This document shows positions 6,820 through 23,496 of a stretch of DNA of 64,000 bases, in pieces. Below the pieces are notes generated by a model. The model made no database searches. It saw nothing but the letters and a program-made list of their open reading frames with translations, and was not told the origin of the DNA. A program made the position numbers and the translations under genes. The DNA lies in contig NC_011365.1 in the NCBI RefSeq assembly GCF_000021325.1, positions 2,384,001 through 2,448,000 on the forward strand. The letters are read 5' to 3'. The stretch's first letter is position 1. The number at the start of each line of letters is the position of its first letter. This DNA is from Gluconacetobacter diazotrophicus PA1 5. Lineage in GTDB: Bacteria > Pseudomonadota > Alphaproteobacteria > Acetobacterales > Acetobacteraceae.

Positions 6820-8946
6820 GTGGTCCTATCCTGGCGCCTGCCCCCGTTCCTGCGTCTGTCATTGCTGTTTCTGGCGCCGCTTGTCTTCCTCCTGGCGCTG
6901 CCGTCCGGCCGCGCGGGGGCGGCTGAGAGTGCGGCGCTGACCACCACGCGCGACAGCGCGACGCTGGTGACGGACACCGACCGGTACCGGCCCGGCATGC
7001 CGCTGCATGTCGGGCTGCGCCTGCGGCTGCAGCCGGGGTGGCATACCTACTGGATCAATCCCGGCGACGCGGGCGAGGCCCCGACCCTGGCGGTGCAGGC
7101 CGGTGGCGGGGCCGCCGGCGCATCCGGCACCATTGCCTGGCCGGTGCCCCGGCGCCTGCCCGACGGGCCGCTGATGTCCTACGGCTATACCGGCGAGGTG
7201 CTGCTGCCGGCCGAACTGCGCCCGACCGGACCGGGGGACGGGCCGATGGTGTTGCAGGCCACGGCCGAATGGCTGGTCTGCGCCGCCGTCTGCGTGCCCG
7301 AACAGGGGCGGTTCACCCTGACGCTGCCGCCGGGCGACCCCGCGCCCTCGGACCAGGCGCCGCTGTTCGCGCGCGCCGCCGCCGCGCGGCCGGTTGCCTC
7401 GCCCTTCGCCGCGATGATCGCGTCCGATGGCGTGTTGGCGATCACGGGCGCGGGGCTGTCGTCCGATACGGTGCGTGATGCCTGGTTCATGCCCACGATC
7501 TCCGGCGCCATCGACCAGGATGCGGCGCAGGCCCTGTCGGTCCATGACGGCGGGCTGACCCTGGCGCTGAAGCCCGGCGACGCCTTCCACGCCGCCCCCA
7601 CGCTGGACGGCGTGCTGGTGCTGAAGGATGCGGCGGGGCAGGAACGCGGCCTGTCGGTTTCGGCCCGTCCCGGTGCGGTGCCGACCGTGACCCCTGGGGC
7701 GGTCCCCGGGCCGGCCCATAGCGGCGCGGCGCGCATGCTGCTGCTGGCTTTCGCCGGCGGGCTGATCCTGAATTTGATGCCGTGCGTGTTTCCGGTGCTG
7801 GTGATGAAGGCGATGGCCCTGACCCGCCTGGCCGGCGGGGGCGCGTCGGCGCGGCTGGCCGGCGCCGGGGCCTATGCGGGCGGCGTGATCGGCGCGTTTG
7901 TGATGCTGGGCGGCGTGATCCTGGCGCTGCGCGCGGCCGGGGCCGTCGCGGGCTGGGGCTTCCAGTTCCAGTCGGCGGCCTTTGTCGCCGCCATGTGCTG
8001 GCTGCTGTTCGCGGTGGCGCTGAACCTGCTGGGCGTGTTCGGCATGGGCAACGGCATCGCGGCGCTGGGCGGCGTGGGCGTGTCGCGCACCGGCTATCTG
8101 GGCGATGCGATGACCGGGGTGCTGGCGGTGCTGGTGGCCACCCCCTGCACCGCGCCGTTCATGGGGGCGGCGATCGCGGGCGCGCTGGCGGCCTCGCCGG
8201 TCGTGGCGATGGCGGTGTTCGTCGCGATGGGGGCGGGGCTGGCTGCGCCCTACCTGCTGCTGGCCGGCGTGCCGGGGCTGGCGCGCCACCTGCCGCGCCC
8301 CGGCGCGTGGATGGATATCCTGCGCCAGGGCCTGGCCTTTCCGGTGCTGGGCACCTGCGTATGGCTGATGTGGGTGCTGGCGTTGCAGGCCGGGGCCGGC
8401 GCGATCGCAGTGCTGGGCATCGGGCTGGTGCTGATCGGGCTGGCGGCGTGGCTGACCGGCCTGGCGCAGGGCATGGCCATGCGCGACGGCCCGGCGCGGC
8501 GCATTCGCCTGTGCCGGGCGGTGGCGCTGGCCGCGCTGGCGCTGGCCATGGCGCTGCTGCCCGGGCTGGGCGGCACCGTATCCGGGGGCGCGGCGCGTCT
8601 GGCCGCCGACGGGTCGGAACCGTTTTCGGCCAGCCGGCTGGCCACGTTGCGGGCGCAGGGCCGCCCGGTGTTCGTGGACATGACGGCGGCGTGGTGCATT
8701 TCCTGCCTGGTGAACGAACGGGTGGCCCTGTCCTCGGCCCCGGTACAGGCGGCGTTCCATGACCGGCACGTGGTCTACATGAAGGGCGACTGGACCAACC
8801 GGAACGCGGCGATCAGCGCCTTCCTGGACGCCCATGGGCGGGCGGGGGTGCCGTTCTACCTCTATTACCCGCCGGGCAGCGGCGATGGCCGGGCCCTGCC
8901 GCAGATCCTGACGACCGGACTGGTGCTGGACGCGCTGAAAGGATAG
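6820..8946 (+). CDS. ScsB/DsbD-type thiol:disulfide interchange protein
   Basis: A 708-residue membrane protein that moves electrons from cytoplasmic thioredoxin to periplasmic thiols. It has a signal peptide (residues 1-34), then a periplasmic immunoglobulin-like domain with the cysteine pair in VCAAVCVP. The DsbD transmembrane core follows, with its redox cysteines in LMPCVFPV and TPCTAPF across about eight membrane helices. The C-terminal thioredoxin-like domain carries WCISC (C626 and C629). The domain order matches the ScsB branch rather than classical E. coli DsbD. The start is GTG at 6820 with CGGA upstream. Partner reductases are not in the window; roles in cytochrome c maturation or in copper tolerance are known for the family. 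Confidence 0.9.
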   Translation: MVLSWRLPPFLRLSLLFLAPLVFLLALPSGRAGAAESAALTTTRDSATLVTDTDRYRPGMPLHVGLRLRLQPGWHTYWINPGDAGEAPTLAVQAGGGAAGASGTIAWPVPRRLPDGPLMSYGYTGEVLLPAELRPTGPGDGPMVLQATAEWLVCAAVCVPEQGRFTLTLPPGDPAPSDQAPLFARAAAARPVASPFAAMIASDGVLAITGAGLSSDTVRDAWFMPTISGAIDQDAAQALSVHDGGLTLALKPGDAFHAAPTLDGVLVLKDAAGQERGLSVSARPGAVPTVTPGAVPGPAHSGAARMLLLAFAGGLILNLMPCVFPVLVMKAMALTRLAGGGASARLAGAGAYAGGVIGAFVMLGGVILALRAAGAVAGWGFQFQSAAFVAAMCWLLFAVALNLLGVFGMGNGIAALGGVGVSRTGYLGDAMTGVLAVLVATPCTAPFMGAAIAGALAASPVVAMAVFVAMGAGLAAPYLLLAGVPGLARHLPRPGAWMDILRQGLAFPVLGTCVWLMWVLALQAGAGAIAVLGIGLVLIGLAAWLTGLAQGMAMRDGPARRIRLCRAVALAALALAMALLPGLGGTVSGGAARLAADGSEPFSASRLATLRAQGRPVFVDMTAAWCISCLVNERVALSSAPVQAAFHDRHVVYMKGDWTNRNAAISAFLDAHGRAGVPFYLYYPPGSGDGRALPQILTTGLVLDALKG

Positions 8947-14690: not shown

Positions 14691-17339
14691 TCAGTGCGAC
14701 AGCGTCGCCAGCCACGGCGTCAGGGCCGCCTGGGCCCGGGCCGCGATGTCCGCGTTGGCCGCGATCAGGTCCACGGCCTTCTTCGCTTCGATCGTGGCAC
14801 CGGTCGACTCCGTGACCGACGGATCGGCCATCAGCGCCTTGGCGACCGCCGGATTGACCGAGTGCCCGGCGATGGCCGGCAGCAGGGCCGACTGCGACCA
14901 GGGTGCGAGGTGCGAGCGGATCTGCTTCTGGGTCTCCGGCGCCTGCACCAGCTTGAAGACCAGGTCCGGATCGTCGCCGCGTGCCGCGATCACGGCCAGC
15001 GCCCGTGCCACGCGCCCGTTCGGGATCACGCCGCTATAGGCGATCTGCACCGTCTGGCGGATCAGCGCGGGGTCGCTGGACGCGGCCAGCGCATCGAAAT
15101 AGCGCAGCTTGTCCTCGGTGTTGCCCGCCGCGCGCAGCATCTGCGCCAGGGTGGCGTAGGTCGCGGCATCGGCATGGCGGCCGACGATCCAGGTGACGGG
15201 CGCCACCAGGCTGGGCGGCAGCGAGGCCGGGTCCTTGCGGTAGGCCGCGAAGCGGGACTGCGCTTCGGCGACCACGGCGGCATCGTCGAACTGGCCCAGG
15301 GTGGCGATCACGCTGGGGCGCAGCAGCGAATCCAGGAAGGATTCACCCGGACGCGGCGCCCAACCCAGGCGCGCCAACTGCGGGCCCAGCAGGGCGCGGG
15401 CGAAGGCGCGGAAGGCCGGGCGCGACGGGCTGCCGCGTTCCATGGCGTCCAGTTCCTTCAGGTGCGCGATCGTGTCCGACCAGACGGCGATGTTGTCCTC
15501 GTGCGTCGCCGGCAGGGCGGCCACCAGGTCCAGCCACGCCGAAAGCGGCGCCAGCCCGGCCTGGAACAGCGCGAACTGGTCACCCAGCAGGTTGGCCCGG
15601 TCGGCCGCGCCCAGCTTGGCGAATGCCGTCTTCAGGGCCGCCAGGGACGCCGTGTCATACTGGGTACGGTAATATCCGTTCTCGCCCAGATTGGCCTTCA
15701 GCGCCGCGTCGCACCCGTCGAAGGTCAGCGTCGCCGCATGGTCCGGCGTCAGGATCGTGCGCTGGGCGGCGATGCCGGGGCCCCCCACCGTGACGGGGAT
15801 GTTCCAGCGCGCGGGCAGCGGATGCGGGTCGCTGATGGCGAAGCGGCCTTCGGTCAGGCTCAGGGTCGTCTTGCCGGCCTGGCAGCGGCGCGCGACCGTG
15901 ACCAGCGGAATGCCCGGCTGTTCGGTGAAGCTGCGTGCGACGGTGGCCACGTCCTGGTGCGAGGTCTGCGCCAGCGCGGCCCACAGGTCGGCGCTGGTGG
16001 TGTTGCCGTAGGCATGGGTCTTCATGTAGGTGCGCATGCCGTCGCGGAAGGTATCGGGACCCAGCCAGTCCTCGATCATGCGGATGACCTGCTCGCCCTT
16101 CTGGTAGCTGATCCGGTCGAAGGCGGTATTGGCCTCGCTGACGTCATGGATCACCTGCTGGACCGGGTGGGTCGTCGGATGGGCGTCCTGCGCCATCGCC
16201 TGTTCACGGTCGGTATGCTGGCGCGGCCACATCTGCCAGGTCGGGTTGAAATGGTCGGTGGCCTTGGTCTCCATCCAGGTGGCGAAGCCCTCGTTCAGCC
16301 AGATATTGTCCCACCATCCCATGGTCACCAGGTCGCCGGACCATTGGTGCGCCATTTCATGCGCCACGACGATATAGACGATTTCCTGCGTGGTCGGCGC
16401 ACTGGTCTTGGGATCGAACAGCAGGTCGTCGTCGATGAAGGTGATGGCACCCCAGTTTTCCATCGCCCCGGCCTCGTAATTTCCGGGAATGGCGATCAGG
16501 TCCATCTTCGGCAGCGGATAGGCCACGCCGAAATACTCGTTGTAATAGGGCAGGATCTGCGACGCGGCGGTCAGGGCGTAGCTGCCGTTCTGCTGCTCGC
16601 CGGTGGGGGCGTAGACGTTGATCGGGGTGTCGCCGCCCTTGCCGCTGACGGCGGACACGTCTCCGGCCACCAGCGCCAGCAGATAGGTGGACATGCGCGG
16701 TGTGGTGCCGAACACGACCCGCTTGGACTGCCCCCCGGCCGGCGAGGTGGAGACGATGGGCATGTTGCTGATCGCCACCGACGCTTTCGGCAGCGTCGCC
16801 GTCAGCTGGAACGTCGCCTTGAAGGACGGCTCGTCCCAGCCCGGGAACATGCGCCGGGCGTCCGCGACCTCGAACTGCGTGACCAGCATGCGCTGCTGCT
16901 TGCCGTCGGGGGCACGGTAATCGTCGTAATAGATTCCGTTCGGGGTGGCGGGGATGGGACCGCGATACGTGATGACCAGCGTATGGTGGCCGGCTGCCAT
17001 CGGATGCTTCAGGGTCAGCGTCGCCGTCTGCGCGTGGTCGTCCTGGGTAATCTTGGCCGCTGCGCCGTCAAGCGTTGCCGATACCAGCGTCAGGCCGGCC
17101 TGGTTCAGTGTGATGCTGTCCGTGGGGGCGGTCGCGTCGACGTCGATGCTCTCGTGCCCACGCAGGGTCAGGCGCTTCATATCGGTGACGAGGTCGATCC
17201 GGTACGCGCTGGGTACCACGGTCTTGGGCAACTGGCCCGGCGCATGGACAAAATCGAACGGTGATTCGCCAAAGGCCGGCCCCGACAGCAGGGCCGTGCC
17301 CGCTAGCAGCAGGGTGGCGATGGCAGGTCTAAAATTCAT
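14691..17339 (-). CDS. exported M1-family zinc aminopeptidase
   Basis: An 882-residue aminopeptidase N-type enzyme. A signal peptide (residues 1-24, cleavage near AFGES) sends it to the periplasm or outside, unlike cytosolic PepN. The exopeptidase motif GAMEN is at about 291-295, the zinc site is H327-E-x-x-H331 with the third ligand E350 (WLNEGFATW), and the catalytic Tyr should lie near 410-415 (RISYQKG). A long helical ERAP1-like C-terminal domain follows. It trims N-terminal residues from peptides. It lies 225 bp downstream of the asparagine-synthetase-like gene in the same direction, but base composition changes sharply between them, so joint function is only a possibility. Confidence 0.92.
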   Translation of the reverse strand: MNFRPAIATLLLAGTALLSGPAFGESPFDFVHAPGQLPKTVVPSAYRIDLVTDMKRLTLRGHESIDVDATAPTDSITLNQAGLTLVSATLDGAAAKITQDDHAQTATLTLKHPMAAGHHTLVITYRGPIPATPNGIYYDDYRAPDGKQQRMLVTQFEVADARRMFPGWDEPSFKATFQLTATLPKASVAISNMPIVSTSPAGGQSKRVVFGTTPRMSTYLLALVAGDVSAVSGKGGDTPINVYAPTGEQQNGSYALTAASQILPYYNEYFGVAYPLPKMDLIAIPGNYEAGAMENWGAITFIDDDLLFDPKTSAPTTQEIVYIVVAHEMAHQWSGDLVTMGWWDNIWLNEGFATWMETKATDHFNPTWQMWPRQHTDREQAMAQDAHPTTHPVQQVIHDVSEANTAFDRISYQKGEQVIRMIEDWLGPDTFRDGMRTYMKTHAYGNTTSADLWAALAQTSHQDVATVARSFTEQPGIPLVTVARRCQAGKTTLSLTEGRFAISDPHPLPARWNIPVTVGGPGIAAQRTILTPDHAATLTFDGCDAALKANLGENGYYRTQYDTASLAALKTAFAKLGAADRANLLGDQFALFQAGLAPLSAWLDLVAALPATHEDNIAVWSDTIAHLKELDAMERGSPSRPAFRAFARALLGPQLARLGWAPRPGESFLDSLLRPSVIATLGQFDDAAVVAEAQSRFAAYRKDPASLPPSLVAPVTWIVGRHADAATYATLAQMLRAAGNTEDKLRYFDALAASSDPALIRQTVQIAYSGVIPNGRVARALAVIAARGDDPDLVFKLVQAPETQKQIRSHLAPWSQSALLPAIAGHSVNPAVAKALMADPSVTESTGATIEAKKAVDLIAANADIAARAQAALTPWLATLSH

Positions 17340-17564
17340 ACGGAAGCTCCGATTTCTGAGTCATAACAGGTGACTCTCCATCAGGCATTGTTCCTCTGTT
17401 GTCTGCTCAAGGCAAATTAAAGAGTGTAGAGTAAGTCGGTCGCATCCTGCACCCAACCGTCAAATATTCGAAAATTTCTCAAGTCAAGATCGTAATACAC
17501 CCACAAAATATAAATAAAATTATCTCGTCTCTATATATAAATTAAAAACAGTGCCATTCAATTT

Positions 17565-19106
17565 TTATTGGAAAAAACACAATACTTTCAGTGTCTGAAA
17601 CAGACAATTGTACGTGTGTCGGTCAATTTTGTCAAAATCACTTCGAATGGAAGATAATATTTTGTTATTTTTTAAGTATTTATGATTCGATATTCGTGAG
17701 GATCGAACCAGTTCACTAAGATATGATTCGTTTTCTTTTATTCCCCGTATTGCGACGGGGTCAAATGTTTCTTTTACGTAGGCCCTTTCGTACATATCGT
17801 TGTTGAGGAGAAGGGAAATGGATTTTCGCAGGATATTCCTGTTGCTTCTGTATTTATAAGGAAGTTTCGATATGAATTGCGAAAGTTGTATGTTCTGGTA
17901 CGGATAGACCGGCCAGATCCCGTGACGCAGCAACCGTTGAGATCTGCTGGCGGAAGAGTACCAGCAACTTTCCGCAAGCCATCCAGCGGGATACGATATG
18001 TGAACGGTGCGTGCATAATTCTGTCCCGCTTCGGTCAGAAACGGACAGTTGGCAGCGTGTTCCCGGTTTCTGCCGCCATCTTCGTCTTCATATATTACGT
18101 AGAGTTCATCTCCGCCCAATCCTGAAATCAGGGTGTCTATGCCTGCGGCTTGCGCGACGCCGAGGCTGGCTTCGAAAATTTCCGGATAGCTTTCATCTTC
18201 GGGCATGACGCCATATCGGACCCGGCGGAGGCTGGTCTCGCCGAACGGTGCCAGTCGCGCCGCGGGAAGGTTCAGATTGTCAAAGCCGCCGGCTTGTATC
18301 AGGGCGGTGCATCTTTCTTGTTGGGCCGCTCCCATCGTGCCATCGAATTGGGCGGTAATGCTGAACAGGCCGTCACCGAGAAGATTTTTTGCAATCATTG
18401 AACTGAGTGCGGAATCCATTCCGCCACTCAATTCCACGGCCGTTCGACGATTTTCCAGGGGGCGGGCGCCCAACAGGGCTTCGAGCGCGCTTATGAAGTG
18501 ACGTTCAATGTCGCCGTTATCAATTTGATCGAATGGCGCGGAGAAAGTAACAGGATAGGGCAGGCTGATTTCTATACCATTCTTGGAGGCTGCAAGAATA
18601 GCGCCCGCGGTCGTGCGAACGACGCCTTCAACGACTGTACGATGACCGTAGGGCATAATGCCCTGGATTTGGGTGATCACGACGTCCCATGCAACGTCGA
18701 TATCAGTATCTTTTAACAGACGCCGATAATCCCAGTCGATGGAAACTCCGCCTGGATCATGCTTGAGATAAAACGGAGCGTAAACGATCGATGAGGCATG
18801 ACAGGAAAAAGTCAGAGACTCTCGGTCGATTATGATCGCGGAAAAATCCAGAAGTCTCAGATGATACTGTTTGATTCGATCGTCTATTAATTCATCACGA
18901 ACAGATTTTTCGTCCAGAAAGCCGGATGATTCATCCGAAAATCGTTCGCTGTTGAAAATGGCGACTCGTTTCCGACTGATGAGTATTTCCGTAAAAAGAA
19001 GTCGATGTTGAAACGGATGGAGACCGGAGGAGCCAAAAAAGATCCCCTCGCCATCAATAACAAGGGGGGAATTGAGATCTGAAAAATTTATTCTTCCGGA
19101 AAACAT
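17565..19106 (-). CDS. asparagine-synthetase-like ATP-dependent amide-forming enzyme (lasso cyclase/beta-lactam synthetase type)
   Basis: A 513-residue protein of the asparagine synthase superfamily. The C-terminal PP-loop ATPase domain has S227-GGMDS and GLGGDE (G331-E334), with a basic LPYKYRSNRNILRKS segment where the family keeps its catalytic lysine. The N-terminal half resembles the class II glutaminase fold, but the protein starts MFSG, so the catalytic Cys2 is absent and ammonia cannot be drawn from glutamine. The same state is seen in lasso-peptide cyclases and beta-lactam synthetase, which adenylate a carboxylate and close an amide. It lies 29 bp downstream of a 50-codon gene, in a visibly AT-rich island, and no B protein, RRE or transporter gene is next to it. 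The role as a peptide-modifying enzyme is inferred. Confidence 0.8.
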   Translation of the reverse strand: MFSGRINFSDLNSPLVIDGEGIFFGSSGLHPFQHRLLFTEILISRKRVAIFNSERFSDESSGFLDEKSVRDELIDDRIKQYHLRLLDFSAIIIDRESLTFSCHASSIVYAPFYLKHDPGGVSIDWDYRRLLKDTDIDVAWDVVITQIQGIMPYGHRTVVEGVVRTTAGAILAASKNGIEISLPYPVTFSAPFDQIDNGDIERHFISALEALLGARPLENRRTAVELSGGMDSALSSMIAKNLLGDGLFSITAQFDGTMGAAQQERCTALIQAGGFDNLNLPAARLAPFGETSLRRVRYGVMPEDESYPEIFEASLGVAQAAGIDTLISGLGGDELYVIYEDEDGGRNREHAANCPFLTEAGQNYARTVHISYPAGWLAESCWYSSASRSQRLLRHGIWPVYPYQNIQLSQFISKLPYKYRSNRNILRKSISLLLNNDMYERAYVKETFDPVAIRGIKENESYLSELVRSSRISNHKYLKNNKILSSIRSDFDKIDRHTYNCLFQTLKVLCFFQ

Positions 19107-19135
19107 GATGACACGAAGTGCTTGTATCTATTTTA

Positions 19136-19288
19136 TCATTCGGGCGGGTAGCCACCGATGGAGTCCGATCCGTCCACCCTCTTGCGAACGATGGGACGAA
19201 CCCCGCGCTCGTTCACGCTTCCGACGAGCAGAGTGCGGAGAGCAGAAAACACGTCCTGCAATTGGGTATTTTTATTTGAAGAAGACAT
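19136..19288 (-). CDS. 50-residue peptide, candidate substrate of the adjacent asparagine-synthetase-like enzyme
   Basis: The ATG at 19288 has a good Shine-Dalgarno (AAGG nine bases upstream), and the stop is 29 bp before the enzyme gene. The peptide has a Ser/Asn-rich start, an amphipathic segment (QLQDVFSALRTLLVG), then a basic and Gly-rich tail ending GSDSIGGYPPE. Leader-like N-terminus, small size and position directly upstream of an amide-forming ATPase fit a RiPP precursor. It has no YxxP leader motif, no Thr two residues before a Gly, and no Asp/Glu 7-9 residues after a Gly, so it is not a normal lasso precursor. A GTG 23 codons upstream could give a 73-residue form but has no clear RBS. 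Confidence 0.5.
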   Translation of the reverse strand: MSSSNKNTQLQDVFSALRTLLVGSVNERGVRPIVRKRVDGSDSIGGYPPE

Positions 19289-19706
19289 AGCACAATCCCT
19301 TGTTATGGTTTCACGCAAGTCAATCCCCTTCTCCTTCAGGAAAGAAGAAGGTAGCACGATTTTCGCTGCTGTTTCGAAGTCCTGTCAAGGTAATTGAAGC
19401 GTGCTGCAGTTTTGTTTTGCAAAAATGTGACATGCAATCAGTGGTATGCAATAAAAATAAATAAACGCCCCGATATTTATCGAATATTATTTCACAATAT
19501 CCCGGCGTCTGCTGCGGAGGCACCGATTGGCGGCGGATGTCAGAGCCTGTGTGACAATGGGGACTGGTACGCGAAAGCGGTCCAAAACGCATCGGAGTCG
19601 TATCTGTAAATGGAAGGATACGACGGCAGATTTTCAATCAGTGTATCCGGATAAAAAAAAGGGGGTGGTCTGAAAGACCACCCCCTCTTGACGGTGCTGT
19701 GAACGA
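19289..19706. promoter_or_regulatory. AT-rich gene-free region upstream of the peptide gene
   Basis: About 420 bp without a credible gene. The right end holds the terminator of the TonB receptor gene (19652-19685), so the peptide and enzyme must have their own promoter in 19289-19650. That part is much AT-richer than the window average (runs such as AATAAAAATAAATAAA near 19450), as expected for a promoter region or for acquired DNA. I could not pick a convincing -35/-10 pair. Short open frames here on both strands have no RBS and no recognisable product. Confidence 0.4.
19652..19685 (-). terminator. strong Rho-independent terminator of the TonB receptor gene
   Basis: GGGGGTGGTCT (19661-19671) pairs perfectly with AGACCACCCCC (19675-19685) around a three-base loop. 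Read leftward, the hairpin is followed at once by eight T residues. It starts 21 bp after the TonB receptor stop. It makes read-through from the receptor into the peptide-enzyme pair unlikely, so they are separate transcripts. Confidence 0.9.
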
Positions 19707-22700
19707 TCAGAGACGGACGTTCACACCGAACTGGAAGGACCGCATGATGATGCCCTTCTGCGTCCAGGAAGAGTTGTACAGGTAGGAACCATAGGTCGCG
19801 TAATCGTACGGCGAGCGGAAGCCCAGCAGGTTATAGACGTTGGCATAGACCGACCAGCGCGGGTTGATCTGGTAGTTGACCGTCAGGTCAACGTCCCACC
19901 AGTTTTTGACATGGCACTGGGTGCTGGGGGCACCGGTCGCGCCGTAGCCCGACAGGGTGTATGCGCACGTGTTGGTGTTGGCGCCGTTCTGGTCTTCAGC
20001 GGTGGTCTTGTAGCCACTGGTGTAATAGACCGTCGGCGTGACGCCCAGACCCTTCCAGCTGAAGGTGTTCGACCAACTGGCCTTCCAACGCGGTGTGCCA
20101 GAGGCCGACACCTGCTCGTACGGACCAATCGTCCCGGCGTAGTGATAGACGCTGCCGTCCGGCAGCGTCAGGTTGGACGCATGCACATACGTGGCCGTGC
20201 CCTTACTGAACCACAGCACGTCATGCAGCGGACCGGGCAGATGACGGGTGGCGTCGATCGACAGATCCACACCATTGGTCATGTAGCTGCGGGCGTTCAT
20301 GTACTGGTCAGTGAAGATACCCGGAGATGCCTTCGCGCCAGGAGCCTGGATATCCGCAATGGACGGAGTGGCCGACAGGATGCCCGACGGTAGAGCTTCG
20401 CCCAGGATGTAGTCATTGGCCGCCGCGACGGGATTCACGTACGGGTTCGCCATGATGTAGTTGGTTTTTTTGATGTAGTAATAGTCGGCCGACAGGTGCA
20501 GCCAGTCCAGCGGGCTGATCACCGCCCCGCCGGTGAAGTTGGTCGAAATTTCCGGCTTCAGGTTGGGATTGCCCACCGTGTTGACGCCGATGGAATACGG
20601 ATTCGTTGCATAGCCGTCGTTGCCGTGCGTCGCCTGCCAGGCTGCGATGCCCGGAATGGAGCTGTTCGGCGTGTACCCCGTGAAGCCGAGGACGGAGCCG
20701 CTGGTTTCAGCAAAGCTGGGCACGCGGAAGCCGCGCGAGAACGTGCCGCGAAGCGCAAACTGCTTCACCGGCTTGAAGTTCACGCCAACCTTCGGCGAGA
20801 AGTGATGCATTCCGGTGGAGTAGTTGTCGTAGCGGCCGGAGATGTCCGCGTTCAGCATCTTGATGATCGGCAGACCCACTTCGAAGTAGCCCGATTCAAC
20901 CCAGCGGCTGCCCTTGGCGCTGAAGGGATTGATGCCGGCCCATTCGTTCGCAGGATTGGCCGTCTGCGGGTTGGCATTGGGGTCGTTGACCGATTCCCAG
21001 CGGATGTTGCCGCCGATAGCGACATTGACCATGCCGCCCGGAAGCTTGAACAGCCCCTTGCTGACATGCATGTCTTCCGAATATTCCTGCGTACGGGCAT
21101 TCAGCACGTTGCGGGGCGCGATGGAATTCAGTTCACTCTTGGAATTCGCGGACGGATTGGCGAAGTTATAGCTGCCGCTCGTGATCGAATTCTCGATGCC
21201 GCTGATCGTCGGGAAACCGGTATCCACCTGCTGCAGGACCGTGTTCATGCCGACGAAGTTGATGTCGTAGTTCCAGTTCGAACCCCATTTTGACGGGGCC
21301 CAGCCGGAATAGCGCATCGATCCGCGGAAGTTCTGGCTGAACTCCGTGGTGAACGGCTGCAGTCCGCCGTACGTGGCCAGGACCTGTGCCGCCTGCCCGT
21401 ACGGGTTGTAGGGGCTCGTGCTCGGCAGGTAGGTGTTCTGCGCCGTGGCGGTCAGATAGGGGGTCGATGCCAGGGTCGAATAGGGCGGATTCGCGTTGTA
21501 GCTCGACTGGACCTGCGAGTAGTTGAACATCGTCACGAACTGCGAACGCGGCGTCACGTTGGCGATGAAATGCGCCGTGGCGTTGATGCGACGGAGTTCG
21601 GGCTGGATTTGCTTGTAGGCACCGACCGCGTTCTGCGTGCAGGTCGTGCTGACGCCCGGCGCACCCGACACAGAGCCGCTGACCTTGCCGATGACGCCCG
21701 CGCCCGTGCACCCGGCGCTCGGGTTCAGCAGTTGCCAGGGGCCCGTGTTGCTCGGAATGCTGCCGCCGGTTGAAGTCGGCGTAAATCCGATGGGCGAGAC
21801 GACGGCCGTCGGCGTGGCGCCGAAGTTGTTGATCGTCGATCCGGGGGCGTTGGTGTTTCCGTTATACCCGCCGGCGAGCCCGCTGAGGTCGCCTGTATTG
21901 TACGGATAGCCGAGCTGACGGTTGTACAGCGCGTCATCCTGCTGGTATTCGGAGTTGAGGTAGAAGTTCCAGCCGTCGCGGTCCAGATCGCCCCAGCCAT
22001 AGGTGGCATACAGCTTCTGGTGACCGGCATCGCCACGCTGGCTCAGGCCGCCTTCGGCATTACCTTCGAAGCCCTTGATCTGCTTGCGCGTGATGTAGTT
22101 GACGACGCCAGCCACGGCATCGGCACCATAGGTGGCGGAGCCACCATCCTGCATCACGTCCACCCGATCCATGATCGAGGACGGCATCCAGTTGGTGTCG
22201 ACGAAGTTACGCTCGCCGTCATCGGCCAGCGGGTAGTAGGACAGACGCTGCCCGTCCATCAGAACCAGGGTCGAGTCCGTGCTCATGCCGCGCAGCGAGG
22301 GGGCGGAGGCACCGCCGGCAAATGCGCCGTAGGCGGAGAACGAGTTCGTCAGGTTGCCCGCGCCATTGGCGGACAGGACCTGCAGCGCGTCGGTCACGGT
22401 TTTCAGCCCGCGCGCGGCCATGTCCTTGCGCGTCACCTCGGTAATGGGCGAGGCGCTGGCCAGGTTCGGATCGCGGAACAGCGTGCCGGTCACGATCACG
22501 TTTTCAGCCGCCGGCGCGTTGTCCGGCGCAGACGTGGCATTGGCCGCGCCCGCGATGATCGACGCGTTGCGGGCGGAAGACGTGGTCGCGGGAACCCCTG
22601 CCGGCGGGATGGCTGCCGCCGGAGCCACGGCGGCGGGGGCCGCACGGGTCGGGGTGACCGTCTTCGCCTTGGCCGTCGTGTGACGGGTCGTGGTCTTGTG

Positions 22701-22901
22701 GTGGTGGGTCGGCGTCGCCGTCGTGGCGGGCGCAGCCGTCTGGGCCGAGGCCAGGGCGGGCGTCGCGGCGATCGCCGTGGCGCACAGCAGCATGCGCCCG
22801 CGGTTGCGCAGCGCGGGTTGGATTACGAGGAAGGGCGAAGGGCGTCGTCGCTTGCGTTCCGCGCCCGGTGCGCGGGGCGGCGTCTCACCGGTTGGTGCCA
22901 T
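19707..22901 (-). CDS. TonB-dependent outer-membrane receptor
   Basis: About 1064 residues. A long Arg-rich N-terminus leads to a signal core (MLLCATAIAATPALASA, cleavage near residue 54). A Thr/His/Ala/Pro-rich linker follows, then the plug domain (from about 145) with IVTGT, SLRGM, VLMDGQRLSYY, IDRVDV-like MDRVDVMQDGGSATYGADAVAGVVNYITRK pattern split over the plug, and a 22-strand barrel ending FQFGVNVRL. The ligand is unknown: no iron-specific features are visible. The start at 22901 is uncertain; an ATG at 22793 would begin directly at the hydrophobic core. The gene ends in a strong terminator. Proteobacterial lasso clusters often carry a TonB receptor, which is why its position beside the peptide/cyclase pair is noted. 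Confidence 0.9.
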   Translation of the reverse strand: MAPTGETPPRAPGAERKRRRPSPFLVIQPALRNRGRMLLCATAIAATPALASAQTAAPATTATPTHHHKTTTRHTTAKAKTVTPTRAAPAAVAPAAAIPPAGVPATTSSARNASIIAGAANATSAPDNAPAAENVIVTGTLFRDPNLASASPITEVTRKDMAARGLKTVTDALQVLSANGAGNLTNSFSAYGAFAGGASAPSLRGMSTDSTLVLMDGQRLSYYPLADDGERNFVDTNWMPSSIMDRVDVMQDGGSATYGADAVAGVVNYITRKQIKGFEGNAEGGLSQRGDAGHQKLYATYGWGDLDRDGWNFYLNSEYQQDDALYNRQLGYPYNTGDLSGLAGGYNGNTNAPGSTINNFGATPTAVVSPIGFTPTSTGGSIPSNTGPWQLLNPSAGCTGAGVIGKVSGSVSGAPGVSTTCTQNAVGAYKQIQPELRRINATAHFIANVTPRSQFVTMFNYSQVQSSYNANPPYSTLASTPYLTATAQNTYLPSTSPYNPYGQAAQVLATYGGLQPFTTEFSQNFRGSMRYSGWAPSKWGSNWNYDINFVGMNTVLQQVDTGFPTISGIENSITSGSYNFANPSANSKSELNSIAPRNVLNARTQEYSEDMHVSKGLFKLPGGMVNVAIGGNIRWESVNDPNANPQTANPANEWAGINPFSAKGSRWVESGYFEVGLPIIKMLNADISGRYDNYSTGMHHFSPKVGVNFKPVKQFALRGTFSRGFRVPSFAETSGSVLGFTGYTPNSSIPGIAAWQATHGNDGYATNPYSIGVNTVGNPNLKPEISTNFTGGAVISPLDWLHLSADYYYIKKTNYIMANPYVNPVAAANDYILGEALPSGILSATPSIADIQAPGAKASPGIFTDQYMNARSYMTNGVDLSIDATRHLPGPLHDVLWFSKGTATYVHASNLTLPDGSVYHYAGTIGPYEQVSASGTPRWKASWSNTFSWKGLGVTPTVYYTSGYKTTAEDQNGANTNTCAYTLSGYGATGAPSTQCHVKNWWDVDLTVNYQINPRWSVYANVYNLLGFRSPYDYATYGSYLYNSSWTQKGIIMRSFQFGVNVRL

Positions 22902-23496
22902 GAAATACCTGCATTCAAGTTGATTCGAAAAACCATCGAGCGGTGCTCCGGTACAATATGCCATCAAATCGTAACTTGTTGGCAACATGGCGGGGGGGGG
23001 ATGTGCTGAAACTGTCCTTCCGTGGCATCTATGCAACAGGAACGGATCCTGCACGTCGGATGTTTACAAAAGTCACGATAAAATCGGAATGATTCTCGAT
23101 ACGGGATGTGGCCGCGCTGACGGACCTGCCGTTCGGCAGGTTTGGTGCGGGCCTGTGAATAATCCGGAATGACAACGAAGTGATCCACCGATCGAAGATC
23201 AGGCGCATGAAACGACCAGCACTGATGCGATCGGGAAGGAAACGAATCGGATTCGATTCGGATTTTTCATAAAGTGCGAAAAATCTAGATTTTTGTAATA
23301 TTATTTCGATATTGCGCTATTTGAATCCAGATCATTGCGTTCTACATAAGAAATGACGCCCGACAGGCCTATTTTTTGAGATTGGGCGCTATTCGGGCTT
23401 TCTGTCGAGTCGTTGCGATGTCGCACTGTGGCCGCGGCGTGGTGCGGGGGTTGTATCCGTAAAGCCACAATGCGTCCGGGACCGCGCGCGCGGGTG
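22902..23496. promoter_or_regulatory. 595-bp gene-free region upstream of the TonB receptor
   Basis: No credible gene. The segment 23240-23345 is AT-rich and should contain the receptor promoter or regulatory sites. At 23243-23255 CGAATC-G-GATTCG is a perfect 6+1+6 palindrome, and the next bases repeat the ATTCG/GATTCGG pattern, giving a cluster of overlapping half-sites like an operator. The end near 23400-23496 is the 3' side of the hydroxyacid dehydrogenase gene; I see no clear terminator hairpin there. Confidence 0.4.

Follow-up and report, generated by a model that had tools for sequence, protein, structure and literature searches.

A gene of only 50 codons and, immediately downstream of it, a gene for an asparagine-synthetase-like enzyme devoid of the catalytic cysteine at position 2 (Cys2) constitute a real gene pair in Gluconacetobacter diazotrophicus, and the pair probably makes a ribosomal peptide in which the enzyme closes a ring between the side chains of a lysine and an aspartate or glutamate. 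This bears out in part, and makes more specific, the original prediction, namely that a small precursor and an asparagine-synthetase-like ATPase with a dead glutaminase form a RiPP-like pair. The pair occupies the minus strand of the window, i.e. the whole stretch of 64,000 nucleotides analysed here, in the order TonB-dependent receptor, hairpin, 50-codon gene, gap of 29 bp, 513-residue enzyme and M1 aminopeptidase, with the following features:

19707..23054, minus strand: TonB-dependent receptor (Pfam Plug and barrel), candidate partner
19657..19689, minus strand: putative terminator-like hairpin separating the TonB receptor from the pair (stem of 15 pairs followed by a T-run)
19359..19388, minus strand: putative promoter-like site 5' of the peptide gene (TTGACA-18-GAAAAT, 10/12)
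19136..19288, minus strand: precursor peptide gene of 50 codons (MSSSNKNTQLQDVFSALRTLLVGSVNERGVRPIVRKRVDGSDSIGGYPPE), an ORF that opens with the ATG at 19288 and whose stop codon ends at 19136
19181..19183, minus strand: codon of Lys36, proposed nucleophile, the lysine of a K-x5-[D/E] motif found in 17/17 listed peptides
19163..19165, minus strand: codon of Asp42, proposed adenylated carboxylate, the acid of the same motif (17/17 listed peptides)
17565..19106, minus strand: asparagine-synthetase-like enzyme of 513 amino acids without Cys2, proposed Lys-Asp/Glu isopeptide synthetase
14691..17339, minus strand: M1 aminopeptidase, a neighbour present in 14/14 genomes of the genus and probably outside the system

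Both reading frames and the gap between them are exactly as first described, as are the enzyme's MFSG, SGGMDS and GGDE. The AT-rich island is likewise there: GC content is 48-52% in the three 1-kb blocks of 17001-20000, as against 59.5-79.4% in the other 61 blocks of the window. The ribosome-binding site of the peptide gene, by contrast, had been called good and is a modest one (AAGGG, 8 bases 5' of the ATG). As to the pair forming a transcription unit of its own, the scans that gave the hairpin and the promoter-like site exceed shuffled sequences only slightly (5 vs 2.9 and 3 vs 2.6). The pair is not a lone unit, as it belongs to a block whose divergence includes the TonB receptor. Three alleles (the window and two others) share the CTTGACAG box and the bases preceding the ATG. 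In line with the statement that no B protease, recognition element or exporter stands beside the pair, none of these was found among the three profiled neighbours (receptor, M1 peptidase and hydroxyacid dehydrogenase), and no lasso B2 protein was found genome-wide; an ATP-grasp domain is absent from the four other window proteins scanned.

The N-terminus of the window enzyme (MFSG) lacks Cys2, in contrast to glutamine-dependent asparagine synthetases, while SGGMDS and GLGGDE are retained. Its sole Pfam match above the cut-off is Asn_synthase (25.2 bits vs 21), and its best NCBIfam match, a macrolactam cyclase model, scores 17.5 bits, far under the cut-off of 300 bits; NF033535 was hit by four of six relatives scanned with 16.5-25.9 bits (cut-off 525), the remaining two giving no match at E 0.01. 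A phmmer search of the PDB with the enzyme alone returned 0 matches at 0.001, and profile A3 retrieved beta-lactam synthetase at 2e-9. The predicted fold is that of the beta-lactam synthetase family, being similar to carbapenam and beta-lactam synthetases, and the top structural matches include enzymes closing an amide within one substrate; the best Foldseek match is TsnB9, a hydroxyamidotransferase. An alignment of 16 enzymes contains 15 invariant columns, with all of SGGxDS and GxGG among them. Members from outside Gluconacetobacter are 18-25% identical to the window enzyme, which shares 73% identity with its counterpart in G. sacchari and 76% with that in G100, a genome marked as belonging to the same species as the window. 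Cys is absent from position 2 in 15 of the 16 aligned members. The exception (L003, from the alphaproteobacterial genome G091) starts with MCG when read from the first ATG but has no such Cys when read from a GTG four codons on, and may thus keep Cys2, depending on the start. Neither window protein matched PADLOC at E 0.1, leaving a defence-system reading unsupported.

The small frame has a counterpart in G. sacchari (L006:8096-8248) that again comprises exactly 50 codons, encodes a peptide with 78% identity and stands in the same gene order, separated from the enzyme by 25 bp. The two peptide genes differ at 40 of 153 bases, with 9, 8 and 23 differences at codon positions 1, 2 and 3, respectively, and dN/dS is ~0.14 (NG86: dN 0.168, dS 1.18; YN00: 0.185/0.825). 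The matching length, the bias of substitutions towards third positions and the low dN/dS make the 50-codon frame more than a product of chance; judged from this comparison, it is under purifying selection. Decay of the frame in close relatives had been named as grounds for abandoning the prediction, and this comparison gave no such grounds. In G100 (L029, G100:C3:1472000-1481000), the peptide gene is broken near its start by an insertion, with the enzyme frame staying open; the insertion holds a 278-aa ORF that, by reading alone, looks like a transposase, and receptor and peptide are separated by a degenerate M1-like fragment (38-51% identity).

Comparison of the peptide homologues, likewise proposed at the outset, revealed a Lys followed after five residues by Asp or Glu near the C-terminus (K-x5-[D/E]), first noticed on 16 peptides. 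Its forms include:

K-RVDGS-D: window peptide
K-SVEGS-D: G100 piece
K-INGPL-E: G091
K-GPFPS-D: Bradyrhizobium
K-PYLGD-D: X. sacchari
K-VRLPG-D: Mesorhizobium
K-GGKPG-D: Rhizobium
K-FQLSG-D: R. leguminosarum Vaf-108
K-PAGTE-D, K-AAETS-D, K-MPGGG-D: Streptomyces

In the first count, the motif occurred in 16/16 peptides and 10/10 group representatives, the ten groups being our own choice and not fully independent (the Mesorhizobium and R. leguminosarum Vaf-108 types share GDS). Among the spacings 0-15, only five is universal (16/16), the runner-up reaching 9/16. When ~1,180 residue-class patterns were scanned and those present in at least 8 of the 10 representatives were scored by shuffles, K-x5-[DE] ranked first (7e-7, no position rule), the next three patterns were its variants, and the best other pattern scored 0.007. 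With 17 peptides the count is 17/17 and the shuffle product 6.6e-9 if the motif is required beyond 35% of the length, a position rule set after looking at the peptides; all these p-values are post hoc, as the motif was noticed on the peptides and then tested. The seventeenth peptide, that of B. japonicum, was obtained after the motif had been noted (its enzyme shares 63% identity with one of those included before). Two further Rhizobium variants (L057 and L063) also carry the motif, which brings the total to 19 of 20 distinct peptides. The sole peptide without the motif, outside the 17, is the frame-shifted one of L064, where the end of the enzyme is shifted too. Excluding G091 leaves 16/16 peptides and 9/9 groups. 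As for the background, 93 of 1669 ATG-started ORFs of 30-65 aa from the same DNA carry the motif, 3.3% have it beyond 35% of their length, and the frequency is 19% among the 309 ORFs with at least two Lys and at least two acids.

At the level of loci, a motif-bearing small ORF precedes the enzyme in 24/25 family loci, which are not independent since near-identical plasmids and three genomes repeating known peptides are included, vs 2/16 ordinary amidotransferase loci. The rule was a same-strand ORF of 28-70 aa that ends no more than 300 bp ahead of the enzyme gene and bears the motif past the first 35% of its length, and the controls are 16 of 21 listed loci, from which L004, L005, L069, L070 and L078 were dropped for their unclear starts. 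The single miss is L064, and G100 was left out of the count because the insertion interrupts its peptide, the piece after the insertion keeping the motif. Co-occurrence with a small upstream ORF had been set beforehand as a test able to refute the pair, and the same 24 of 25 loci speak in the pair's favour. Several start codons were chosen by us where the ORF extends upstream (e.g. L052, L054, L063 and L086). In Streptomyces NBC_00334 and B. japonicum, the annotated small gene lies further upstream and is devoid of the motif, and the unlisted ORF nearest the enzyme was used; the small ORFs of the Bradyrhizobium quebecense type are missing from the gene tables of the records, which are incomplete by design. 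The residue preceding the acid is mostly small, the tail that follows has 6-8 residues in 14/17 peptides and an aromatic residue in 14/17, and a K-x5-D ring would have 26 atoms, equal to an 8-residue Glu lasso ring.

The conservation of the pair, the loss of Cys2, the predicted fold and the K-x5-[D/E] motif lead us to infer the following reaction and order of steps. The enzyme, an asparagine-synthetase relative unable to take ammonia from glutamine, would bind the precursor and use ATP to adenylate the side-chain carboxylate of Asp42, which would then be attacked by the side-chain amine of Lys36, so that a 7-residue isopeptide lactam closes, followed by a free 8-residue C-terminal tail. The amine being internal, the leader would need no prior removal, so that a leader protease would be dispensable and the lack of a B protein accounted for; the co-varying TonB receptor would finally take up or sense the product. 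The Lys could alternatively serve as a recognition residue. Because a 26-atom ring resembles that of an 8-residue Glu lasso and the tail is short and usually aromatic, the tail could be threaded. A bolder proposal, which we put forward only tentatively and consider less than likely, is that of a separate class, a lysine-tethered lariat with a tail that is perhaps threaded, the leader attached, no protease and a product read by a matched TonB receptor; under it, the receptor barrel in Gluconacetobacter would be swapped together with the peptide core between strains.

The known systems closest to such a pair are the lasso peptides, whose cyclases (C proteins of the McjC type) belong to the same superfamily, have lost Cys2, are paired with a small precursor and, like the window enzyme, are expected to adenylate an Asp/Glu side chain. 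An ordinary lasso peptide would mean that a protease encoded elsewhere frees the N-terminus and the enzyme joins the alpha-amine to an Asp/Glu at ring position 7-9 (in the window, for example, Leu21-Glu27, or a ring that starts with Lys36 and has Asp42 at position 7), and we regard it as unlikely despite several points in its favour. The best NCBIfam match, sub-cut-off as it is, is a macrolactam cyclase, and TLLVGSVNE, shared by all three Gluconacetobacter peptides, could be a 7- or 8-residue ring. In G091, the peptide reads ST-A-FAKINGPLE, that is Thr, Ala and a 9-residue ring ending at the conserved Glu, and a B2-like gene exists elsewhere in the genome (L087, G091:C29, ~7029-7415; 73.5 bits), on a contig other than that of the enzyme; by eye, there is no cyclase gene among the ORFs of at least 100 aa in the 14.5 kb around it. 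Lasso cyclases, however, need a freed N-terminus and therefore a protease, and B2 (NF033537) was found in 0/4 Gluconacetobacter genomes (G000, G006, G100 and G003) and 0/7 plasmid records (the plasmids only, not the chromosomes of those strains), and PF13471 in 0/1 genome (G000). By the lasso leader rules, applied here from the accessible part of PMC10368454, YxxPxL occurs in 0/17 peptides (YxxP alone in 2/17) and a Thr at -2 of a 7-9 ring ending at the conserved acid in 2/17, with no fixed Thr(-2) as a consequence; T-x7-9-[DE] is about as common as in shuffled sequences (7/10 representatives vs 5.6 expected). An ordinary lasso peptide also leaves unexplained why all listed peptides retain a Lys at a distance of six residues from the acid, a point in which the window family differs from lasso systems.

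Still less probable, in our judgement, is that the enzyme uses ammonia or another small amine to amidate, or to modify in some other way, a side chain or the C-terminus, the Lys serving for recognition only. Peptide amidation has precedents among asparagine-synthetase-like enzymes, free ammonia can be used by PesC according to the accessible part of a 2026 preprint (PMC13060819), and a hydroxyamidotransferase, TsnB9, tops the Foldseek matches; yet PesC takes nitrogen from glutamine when supplied (same part of PMC13060819), whereas the window enzyme has no Cys2, and amidation does not require a fixed spacing between Lys and acid. The C-terminal residue, moreover, is not conserved, the 17 listed peptides ending in E, E, A, Y, L, L, G, N, D, K, C, L, V, V, Y, Y and Y, and for this reason the earlier speculation that the C-terminal Glu is activated fails as well, an internal K-x5-[D/E] being kept instead. 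The nearest folds act on small molecules, which would suit a peptide that is a regulator or partner rather than the substrate of an enzyme acting on a small molecule; we deem this highly improbable, since the pair aside, no gene is common to all loci examined, and since the peptide varies outside the motif, a behaviour common in substrates.

The predicted Lys to Asp/Glu side-chain amide would resemble the products of graspetide (omega-ester/amide peptide) systems. Graspetides are made by ATP-grasp ligases, unlike the window enzyme with its asparagine-synthetase fold (by Pfam and predicted fold), and beta-lactam and carbapenam synthetases differ in acting on small amino acid derivatives, not on a ribosomal peptide. 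Members of the superfamily that do act on RiPP precursors are TsrC and ScdTA, which amidate C-termini, and PesC, which makes a nitrile and can draw nitrogen from glutamine; all three modify the C-terminal carboxylate, unlike the proposed window enzyme (PMC13060819, accessible part). The same part of this preprint, a survey of PF00733, counts ~3,800 RiPP-associated members, ~3,500 of them lasso-related, and leaves ~300 uncharacterised, for which its authors name lactam formation among the possibilities. No such system as the present one is described in the accessible parts of a graspetide paper (PMC13097080), a study of recognition elements (PMC13381572) and a review from 2026 on interlocked peptides (PMC13352647), and the literature, mostly open-access and at abstract level, yielded no recognisable asparagine-synthetase-like Lys-Asp/Glu joiner, which is weak evidence of absence. 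If the ring closure by the enzyme is true, an asparagine-synthetase relative joining two side chains would be new chemistry for the superfamily and would explain part of the ~300 uncharacterised members (PMC13060819, accessible part). Transfer of the two-gene system into E. coli would be straightforward, and further pairs can be sought by a sequence rule, namely a small ORF with K-x5-[D/E] immediately ahead of an Asn_synthase gene that lacks Cys2.

In Gluconacetobacter, the enzyme is encoded by 3/14 genomes, namely G000 and G006 (two of the 13 genus members first searched) and G100. The M1 aminopeptidase, occurring in all 14, was rejected as a part of the system. A comparison of 12 regions 5' of the M1 gene, one of which (G100) has the pair, showed that in 6 of the 11 pair-less regions (L030-L034 and L036) a receptor with 56-80% identity directly precedes M1 with no pair between; the pair has thus been added between receptor and peptidase and is no constant component of the M1 locus. 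Of the other pair-less regions, L035 has receptor pieces only, the receptors of L038 and L040 show an identity of ~25%, the contig of L037 is short, and the M1 strand of L039 bears no receptor. In L032 (G004:C18), two receptors of the window type stand in tandem before M1, without peptide and enzyme.

Searches at broader taxonomic levels matched 4/397 genomes of the family at 1e-8, 2/385 of the class (the window genome and G091, the same with profiles A1 and A2) and 19/398 of the phylum at 1e-15, own genome included. The fourth family match (G151), a partial one of 35 bits to an MCG amidotransferase, was not counted, and neither were the 18 other phylum matches, partial and of 57-72 bits, the starts of which, by reading, are MC[GA] in 11/18, MS[GA] in four and unclear in three. 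The genus of G817 gave 3/146 matches and its family 0/151, the latter without a positive control; the viral contigs scanned contained no relative. A tblastn search of 72,556 plasmid records with the window enzyme hit 47 records, each less than 60% identical, and five relatives used as queries hit 53, 50, 26, 46 and 54 records. The plasmid relatives sit in Rhizobium, Bradyrhizobium, Mesorhizobium, Aminobacter, Xanthomonas sacchari and Streptomyces, the pair spanning distant plant-associated and soil bacteria. Ring closure through two side chains by such an enzyme would be a new natural-product route. In seven Rhizobium plasmid records, mostly from clover, the match covers the first 181 enzyme residues only (95% identity), which suggests loss of the enzyme.

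Comparison of the window with G100 in 200-base blocks delimits a divergent stretch of ~6 kb (17.4-23.4 kb, against L029/L089) that holds receptor, peptide and enzyme: identity is 99-100% at 23.6-24.4 kb, 52-84% from 23.4 down to 17.4 kb save two blocks (90 and 92%) in the first part of the receptor, graded from 87 to 95% over 16.8-17.2 kb and back at 99% by 16.6 kb. With the boundary between leader and core set by us after residue 28 and three alleles compared, the window and G. sacchari share 19/22 core positions and 80.8% of the receptor barrel, the window and G100 10/21 and 58.8%, and G. sacchari and G100 10/21 and 59.2%, the last two alleles agreeing at 23/24 leader positions. The barrel thus appears to track the peptide core, not the leader, a pattern in three alleles that is suggestive only, and enzyme identity does not track the core (73% window-sacchari vs 76% window-G100). 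Uptake or sensing of the product by the TonB receptor would fit this covariation, which provides a handle on the product's role. G003 has no pair but a receptor that shares 91.3% identity with the G. sacchari one.

The neighbours of relatives elsewhere were examined in 19 plasmid loci. An ABC transporter gene is often nearby, and in G091 one follows the enzyme copy, which lies on a 152-kb contig. An acyl-homoserine-lactone synthase gene is found near 5/19 plasmid loci, and an annotated phosphotransferase gene follows the enzyme in 6/19, four of the six also having a GNAT gene; Pfam confirmed APH and GNAT in L050, the one locus checked. With such neighbours, the peptide might be under quorum control and be accompanied by genes for tailoring or self-protection. 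The phosphotransferase and GNAT genes after the enzyme in some rhizobia and the acyl-homoserine-lactone synthase gene in others can be seen in L050 (7563-8986), L051 (4793-5320) and L086 (11235-11882).
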